In this document: positions 19,701 to 23,039 of the stretch, piece by piece
How the letters are laid out: every line of letters begins with the position of its first letter
How positions within the stretch are numbered: the first letter of the stretch is position 1
The notes under the pieces: model-generated
Seen by the model: only the letters and a program-made list of their open reading frames with translations
Database searches by the model: none
What the model was told of the DNA's origin: nothing
Made by a program: the position numbers and the translations under genes
From: Opisthorchis felineus
Lineage: Eukaryota; Platyhelminthes; Trematoda; Opisthorchiida; Opisthorchiidae
Direction: 5' to 3'
Length of the DNA: 64,000 nucleotides
Assembly (NCBI GenBank): GCA_004794785.1
Contig: SJOL01010054.1
Coordinates: 23,909-87,908 of the forward strand

Positions 19701-22700
19701 CTTCTGAAAAATGCAACTGGAGCACGCAAGCCGACAGTCGTCTCATCTTTTTGGGATTCGTAAGGTAGCCTCCGGAAAAAGCAGTCCTCATGGCACCGCT
19801 ATTTATGCGGTTTATAACCAGTCCTCACCTGATTTCCTGGAACTACGTGGAACTGTGTTCACCTTTCTGTGCTCTACTCAGTTTATTCATGAGAAAGTTT
19901 TGTTCCAACCTGCTTGCAACTGCAGATACATGAACATGTGGGCCAGTTGTAGGAGGGTACGGCTAGCCCAAACTTGGCCACCGTTTAATTGTGGTGTAGC
20001 TCGAGCCATGGTAAAGCGGGTTTAGTACCATATGTCGTTATAACTGGTTGGACCATATACCGCCGACTGCTTTTAGCATGTCCTCTGTGTACGACTGGTG
20101 ATGGTAATGATGGTCGTGTGTATGTGCTCAAACTATCCGATGTCTTTACTCCTTTGGGCCAACATGCACTTACACGCAGTCATCGAATGAAGTGCTTCAT
20201 GATGCTCATCATCTATCTCTAATAGCCGCTGTATTGTGTCAAAACCCCGATGATCGATGCATTTCCTGACCATATTTGCGGTGATCTTCTATGCTTCAAT
20301 AACAGTCGGCACGTTTTGTAGTGCAGGTAGACATCTTGTTCTTGATAAGTTCGTTTAAGGGCACTAAATCACCGCCCCTTCCCTCTTGAGGCGGTGTGAT
20401 TGTTAAGCGCCAGTGTATTGTTGGGCGGTTTGTGTGTGTTCGTAAGAGCTCTGATTTGGTAAAATGGAATAAGAGACACCATTAAACAAATACGTTCATC
20501 CAAATGAGTCTGAACGCATCTGCTCGGTTTGTCAGGCGATTGTCGCTGCTTCTCACTTACTTCCTGATCTAGTCCCGCTTATGAAGCGTCGGTGCTCCAC
20601 ACCAGTGTTGTCAAGGATATCGCTGACAAATAACCGTTCAATAAATTCCCTCGCTTTGTTAGGGCCCAATTAAACTGGGCACGGTGAACCTGGTTGTTAC
20701 ATCAAACGGAATCCCGTATACGTCTGCTTTTGTCCCTATCATTACCTTAATATGCACACCGATTGCATGCTCTTGTTGCAACAGGCATCTTTCCACAGCC
20801 GAATTACGCTGAATTGGGTTCTCCTCTCGACCCGTGCGAAATTCAAGCGTCATGAGATACTTACACATGAGTGTGCATACTGTTTGTGCATCCCTTCAAT
20901 GTAAAATACTCAATTGTCGGAGTTGTGCGCGCCAAGCTCTAATTCGGATGTTATTAGCCTAACGGCGGTGTCGTCTAGCGAAGGCACCGTGCATATGCTG
21001 TATGATTCTAGGACTGTCCTTACTAACTTTATGGGGATAGATTCACCTCGCCCGTTGCTGCTGGTTTCTGTTTCTGGATCATCGTTTTTCTATTTCACTC
21101 GGAGTTAGGCCACAGTAACCCGTAAGGTGACGTTCTTCGTTGACCCAACTTGGTTTTCATCCCCTTCCGAGAAGGCGGCCTATCCTTATTTCCTCGTTGA
21201 GACGTTTTCGGGCTGGGTGAGATACGTTTTTACGGGCACCTCATTCCTTCAACCTTCTCTTGTCATGCTAATGGCTGCACATATCTTTATTGTTGGTATC
21301 TGTAAATAATAGATCTGAACTTGAGATGTTCCCCAGGTTGTCCATCATCTTAGCAGATCGGATTCGCATCGTTGCAACATTCTCGAGTGAGTCGTTCATG
21401 GAGTGAAACATGATTTCCATCTCAATTTTGTTTCCCACTCTTAGGCACGTAATGACAAACCTCGGTGAAAAGTTGACGGATGAAGAAGTCGACGAAATGA
21501 TCCGCGAAGCTGATATTGATGGCGATGGTCAAGTAAATTACGAGGGTGAGTTCAGTATACCATGTACCGTTCTGAGTAGTCTTTTGTTGTTTTCTCGTCA
21601 TTGTCTTGTTGTAGTTTTTGGTGTGTAGTTTTTGTTTCAATCATGTGGCGTCGTGTCTGTTGCGTGCACTCCGTATTTTTCTCATCGTTGTCTGTTCTTC
21701 CACTCCTTATCCCCTCCGCAACTCCAATGTCTCGCCCTTCTGTTTGATGTTATCTCCGCTTTGACCTCGGTATACGCGGCCGGCTCTCCTTGGCTCACTC
21801 TCAAATTGTCCATCCATTTGGACTTGCTAATCTCGGAACATCAGAGTTTGTCAAAATGATGACGGCGAAGTAAGAAGACCAGAAAGCAGCTCCCCTTTCC
21901 GTTGGCATAAGTTGGGGTCACAAACAACCGATAGGCACACTGTCGCTTGCAACAATCGACTTTGTGTGTTTGTGCACAGAACTTGCGCGGTGCGTACATC
22001 ACCTGTTGTAATTCTGTTCGCGTTTTCGTCCCCTCCATTGTCAAACTGTCGCATGTCGACTGTGTCGTCGCCCCATATGCTGCCTTTTGTGGTGGAAAGC
22101 GATCGATGCTCCTTGAATTCCGTTTGACCTTTTTATGGCCTTTGTAAGCCGATTTGGACCAATTCCTGCGAAACCCTTTCCTTGCACCAACCTGCACACC
22201 CTCTGATTGAACAAGCCCCTACCCCCCTCCACAGCGAATAAAACTCACGCGGCCCACTTCATGTTACTATTTTTTGACTTCCCCGGAAGTAGTATTTATT
22301 CTTGTTGCTTATGTGACCAACAAATGGACCTCAGCGCTACTACCGCTTTGCCAGTGTTTCTATATCAAAACGCGGTATTACGCTGTGCCCCTAATAAAAA
22401 TAAGAATGTCCATCAGCCGCGTGGTACACTACTTCTGTTTGACGACACATGCGTTTTTCCTGTTGCAGCTGGGTAGTTGCCGGGTCTTGGTGAGGTTGTA
22501 ATCCAATGGGAACCACCACCTTGCAGTCCTTGTTTCTATACTTAGTTGGTGAGACGGTGCTTCGTTGTTCTCACGCATTTGTCCTCAATTGTAGTTTGCC
22601 TCTTGGTACGTGAATTAAAGAGTTGACGTTTGAGCTCTAAGATCTTTTACCTGATGGAAGTCGTTGCGGGTCGCTTGGATATACCTGGGCTTTGCATTAG

Positions 22701-23039: not shown

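Follow-up and report, generated by a model that had tools for sequence, protein, structure and literature searches.

Vertebrates have three genes that encode one identical calmodulin protein, and abalone has four calmodulin genes, built of five exons of which the first holds only the ATG; the abalone authors weighed splice forms and excluded them (PMC6171432). Among flukes, a four-exon genomic copy of FhCaM1 in which TAG replaces the first Met is reported for Fasciola hepatica, alongside two or more intronless copies; the authors suggested that the TAG-bearing copy might be a pseudogene or the product of a sequencing error (PMC4730779). The same paper treats Schistosoma mansoni SmCaM1 and SmCaM2 as separate genes that are more than 99% identical, and a schistosome calmodulin is also cited in the literature as Smp_026560.2. 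Within the literature on calmodulin splicing covered here, to which most subscription journals do not belong, we found no paper that describes a calmodulin gene with alternative last coding exons. The relevant systems on the splicing side are exons with distant branch points. In a human survey, AG exclusion zones of at least 150 nt preceded 165 of 67,334 exons; exons with zones of at least 100 nt were alternatively spliced more often (P = 0.002), by the authors' estimate, a distant branch point underlies one-fifth to one-half of such zones, and PTB regulated the few cases that had been analysed (PMC1431707).

We compared these systems with a calmodulin gene on the + strand of the window, the 64-kb stretch of Opisthorchis felineus DNA that was analysed. 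Using tblastn and splice joins, we placed exon 2, which begins at residue 2 (4805-4979), exon 3 (5017-5158), which follows a 37-nt intron, and exon 4 (21445-21545), which follows an intron of 16286 nt. The acceptor of exon 2 is a TAG (4802-4804) that lies directly 5' of residue 2. Upstream of exon 2, the form ATG/GT(A/G) is found at two positions, 2599 and 3365. We regard the ATG at 2599-2601 (ATG/GTGAGC; seven of nine donor consensus letters) as a candidate exon 1 that would hold the ATG only; the true exon 1 could sit elsewhere. The donor of exon 4 (AGG/GTGAGT at 21546) matches eight of nine consensus letters, a score reached by only 0.5% of 4267 GT sites when judged, like the acceptors below, by general consensus values without training on flukes. 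The third intron also contains reverse-transcriptase fragments and short repeats (6882-18093, mostly on the - strand), which account for 12 of the 22 self-similar stretches of the window. A reverse-transcriptase fragment gave 46 matches: the best was to an unnamed sequence (72% over 90% of the query), and others were to sequences of Opisthorchis viverrini (75% over 66% and 68% over 78%), Clonorchis (64% over 52%), Schistosoma (55-56% over 99%) and Dicrocoelium (50% over 99%). Copies of one short repeat are located at 18925-19095, 10434-10615, 33198-33370 and 35851-36021; the copy at 18920 (GGTTCGAACCC) reads like a tRNA-derived SINE.

Behind the exon 4 donor are two coding ends, which we call A (21845-21873, FVKMMTAK) and B (23011-23039, FVTMMTTK). 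Each is AG-flanked, 29 nt long and in frame, as the preliminary description had correctly placed them, and they would be joined to exon 4 across introns of 299 nt and 1465 nt, respectively. Both A and B complete codon 141 (Glu), and each supplies its own stop, so that the ATG with exons 2 to 4 and either end yields a 149-residue calmodulin near-identical to animal calmodulin. Joining each end to exons 2 to 4 also bears out the residues earlier assigned to the two forms: counting Met1, form A has K144 and A148, and form B has T144 and T148. Relative to a vertebrate sequence, form A differs at two positions (Y100F and Q144K) and form B at three (Y100F, Q144T and A148T); Pfam EF-hand_1 matched four stretches of form A, indicating four EF hands. 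In both ends a donor-like GTAAG spans the stop (21869-21875, GTAAGA, six of nine consensus letters; 23035-23041, GTAAGC, seven of nine). Two same-phase acceptors behind one donor, each leading to a stop, constitute the layout of alternative last exons, and we read the locus, with a probability of about 0.87, as a calmodulin gene that ends in either A or B.

By pattern search, the two ends have no counterpart elsewhere in the window or the assembly. A strict pattern (AG/EFVxMMTxK-stop), applied to both strands of the window, recovered A and B only, relative to a chance expectation of approximately 8e-8 for 64 kb and two strands; it was absent from 60 simulated 64-kb strands, across which a relaxed version occurred twice. 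In the whole genome (630 Mb, 1848 contigs), GARTTYGTNNNNATGATGACNNNNAARTRR had two matches, A and B, and the reversed-pattern control had none. Of 44 matches in a protein search of the genome, three are exons of this gene (91-95% identity), and the remaining 41 are 26-56% identical; at the DNA level, exons 2-3 together matched once, as did exon 4. One canonical calmodulin gene was therefore found in this assembly, with further copies conceivable given that the protein search scores the best candidates only and that the assembly may be incomplete. It follows that this assembly offers no second canonical calmodulin gene to which either end could belong, and that two calmodulin proteins, if made, would share one locus. 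The protein search also revealed a tandem EF-hand family on another contig of the genome (G000:C1291:325972-346042), with five calmodulin-like matches of 27-34% identity within approximately 20 kb, and a scan of viral contigs gave a single, unrelated calmodulin (70% identical).

A and B share 21 of their 29 nucleotides, and their differences are concentrated at third codon positions (6/10, as compared to 2/19 at first or second positions; Fisher one-sided p = 0.009, over only 29 nt). Silent differences between the ends had been noted previously, and there are four of them (GAG/GAA, TTT/TTC, GTC/GTA and ACG/ACC). A and B agree in seven of nine residues though most third positions have changed, which argues that the reading frames of both ends are constrained; on this small test, the earlier proposal of selection on both ends is supported. 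Beyond the coding letters, the sequence around A bears no significant similarity to that around B, either over the 200 nt upstream or over 600 or 1100 nt downstream (p = 0.09, 0.70 and 0.73, with 200 shuffles each). Because the differences are biased toward third positions and the flanks are unrelated, the exon duplication looks old, with both frames retained. Among 167 listed homologues, 155 had recognisable tails, and these included neither VKMMTAK nor VTMMTTK exactly; they did include VQMMTAK (85), VTMMTSK (33), VTMMTKK (6) and VKMMTSK (6), so that tails of the Q, T and K types at residue 144 all occur in other calmodulins among the matches listed. The protein database is clustered at 90% identity, too coarse a level to show fluke isoforms, and the searches listed the best 120 of 7982 and the best 120 of 5135 matches; the tail counts are of the listed cluster representatives rather than of species. 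A text search of the literature for the end peptides of A and B returned no papers.

The acceptors of the two ends differ in strength. Judged by general consensus against 3739 AG sites, that of B scores at the 99.4th percentile, and it ranks second of the 76 AGs within 21560-24000; the first-ranked, at 23291, is outside any known exon. The acceptor of A is weak over its last 20 nt (69.3rd percentile; rank 36 of 76), yet it closes a pyrimidine-rich AG exclusion zone of 214 nt (21629-21842, bounded by AGs at 21627 and 21843). Measured start to start, the AG-free gap that ends at A spans 216 and exceeds every other of the 3738 on the + strand. On the - strand no gap is longer than 149, and among 100 simulated 64-kb sequences the maximum averaged 138 and reached 184 at most. 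From its composition the zone would be expected to contain 5.3 AGs, and only 0.135% of 20000 shuffles contained none. Its 214 nt place it among the large AG exclusion zones that characterize distant-branch-point exons. Further long gaps on the + strand are found at 23064 (155, behind B), 20661 (122) and 21978 (120, behind A), and the 1-kb window starting at 23001 is the most pyrimidine rich of 631 (0.62; mean 0.51, sd 0.027), the top eight such windows all beginning within 21601-23301. Pyrimidine richness thus accounts for part of the zone effect, as the other long AG-free gaps of this strand indicate. The second-longest gap of the + strand lies far away, at 62682-62874 (192 start to start); neither it nor the gap at 23064 has a known acceptor role.

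Within the zone, candidate branch points with pyrimidine-rich sequence behind them were located at -161 and -136 relative to A, again by general consensus. A candidate at -81 has a better consensus than these two, and one at -15 is as good as that at -81, so A could be spliced without a distant branch point. We consider the AG exclusion zone to be new evidence for A as a putative splicing target, and give about even odds to the prediction that a distant branch point is used.

The regions behind the two ends also differ. Behind A there are two AATAAA hexamers, at 22237-22242 (364 nt behind the A stop), which probably serves form A as its poly(A) signal, and at 22393-22398 (520 nt behind the stop); an ATTAAA at 22614 also lies between A and B. 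Behind B, no AATAAA is found before 26108, 3069 nt away, and variant hexamers are nearer. None of the self-similar stretches falls within 20000-27000, repeats in 21400-24300 are limited to short imperfect pairs, and a search with Rfam gave no matches at the gathering score.

The preliminary description had proposed a single calmodulin gene with two alternative last exons. As an account of the sequence this is well supported, given the single gene found, the unique ends, the AG zone, the B acceptor and the AATAAA signals; the joining of exon 4 to each end in transcripts is a prediction. Four other explanations bear on it. The weak local acceptor of A would be expected if one end, most likely A, were a relic no longer joined to exon 4. 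We consider this unlikely, as A is intact, its differences from B are codon biased, it closes the longest AG-free gap of the + strand, AATAAA signals follow it, and the reverse primer published for Fasciola FhCaM1 encodes an A-type tail (PMC4730779). An origin of the second end in an assembly error, or in another calmodulin gene collapsed here, appears highly improbable: errors of this type do occur in genome assemblies, but the sequences surrounding A and B are unrelated, 20000-27000 is devoid of self-similar stretches, and the genome gave one match to exons 2-3 and one to exon 4. Equally improbable is the use of A as an internal exon of 25 nt, spliced from the GTAAGA at its stop to B in another frame to give an extended tail. 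The 21869/23011 join is open, and the donor-like site has six of nine consensus letters, but 14.5% of GT sites match equally well or better, and the calmodulin frame of B would be left unused and unexplained.

A further possibility is nested within the main reading: selection may act on the choice of 3' UTR, through the level, stability or place of the mRNA, with the residue differences being nearly neutral. A and B lead into separate 3' regions, A being followed by AATAAA signals, their flanks are unrelated, and the Q-, T- and K-type tails all occur in other calmodulins. The preservation of seven of nine residues despite third-position changes points to constraint on the frames, but not in itself to a role for the K/T and A/T differences. 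We regard this possibility as tentative, though considerably more plausible than the preceding three.

Returning to alternative last exons, we propose the following working for the gene. Exon 4 would be joined either to A (at 21845), with cleavage at the poly(A) sites behind A, or, when A is skipped, to B (at 23011) by way of an ordinary strong acceptor. Either choice would contribute the last nine residues, the stop codon and its own 3' UTR. The A acceptor is locally weak but ends a 214-nt, pyrimidine-rich AG-free zone, so A may well be spliced from a distant branch point and would then be open to regulation by a PTB-like protein. The gene would yield one calmodulin with K144/A148 and another with T144/T148, translated from mRNAs that differ in their 3' UTRs. 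The anatomy of the gene, its copy number in this assembly, the reading frames and the AG exclusion are observed; from them we infer that both ends are used, that a regulator may choose between them and that the forms may differ in function. The fuller proposal, that an animal with one canonical gene makes two calmodulins by a regulated choice of last exon, with A controlled through a distant branch point and with residue 144 (K/T), residue 148 (A/T) and the 3' UTR switched by tissue or stage, seems to us evenly balanced between true and false.

Calmodulin is tightly constrained, and a single gene able to splice either of two C-terminal ends would provide a natural test of what the last helix and the 3' UTR do. 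Since exons 1 to 4 would be common to both forms, probes placed in these shared exons in studies that silence fluke calmodulin would hit both. The arrangement also prompts re-examination of those flukes that have been credited with two calmodulin genes or with a calmodulin pseudogene.

Compared to the systems described at the outset, the gene resembles the abalone calmodulin genes in its 149 residues, its five exons and its short last coding exon, and an ATG-only exon 1 fits here as well; unlike abalone, which has four separate genes, we found here one gene with two last exons. SmCaM1 and SmCaM2 of Schistosoma mansoni are likewise two near-identical fluke calmodulins, but they have been called distinct genes; the preliminary description had suggested that such a pair may be splice forms of a gene like this one. 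The suffix of Smp_026560.2 may mark a transcript of one locus. The zone before A is like those of PTB exon 11 and α-tropomyosin exon 3 (PMC1431707), in that a long, pyrimidine-rich AG exclusion zone precedes the exon and candidate branch points lie well 5' of the acceptor; the two compared with it belong to a set of mammalian exons of which several have been tested by mutation, whereas A is a predicted last exon of a fluke gene. In Fasciola hepatica, the reverse primer for the FhCaM1 cDNA (PMC4730779) translates, in our analysis, as VKMMTAK, like end A; unlike the gene described here, the parts of that paper covered here give FhCaM1 no second end and make no mention of splicing. The four-exon FhCaM1 copy is like this gene in having a TAG just 5' of residue 2. 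At that position in the present gene, TAG serves as the exon 2 acceptor, and what was suggested to be a pseudogene in Fasciola may thus be a misread ordinary gene whose first exon holds the ATG only.
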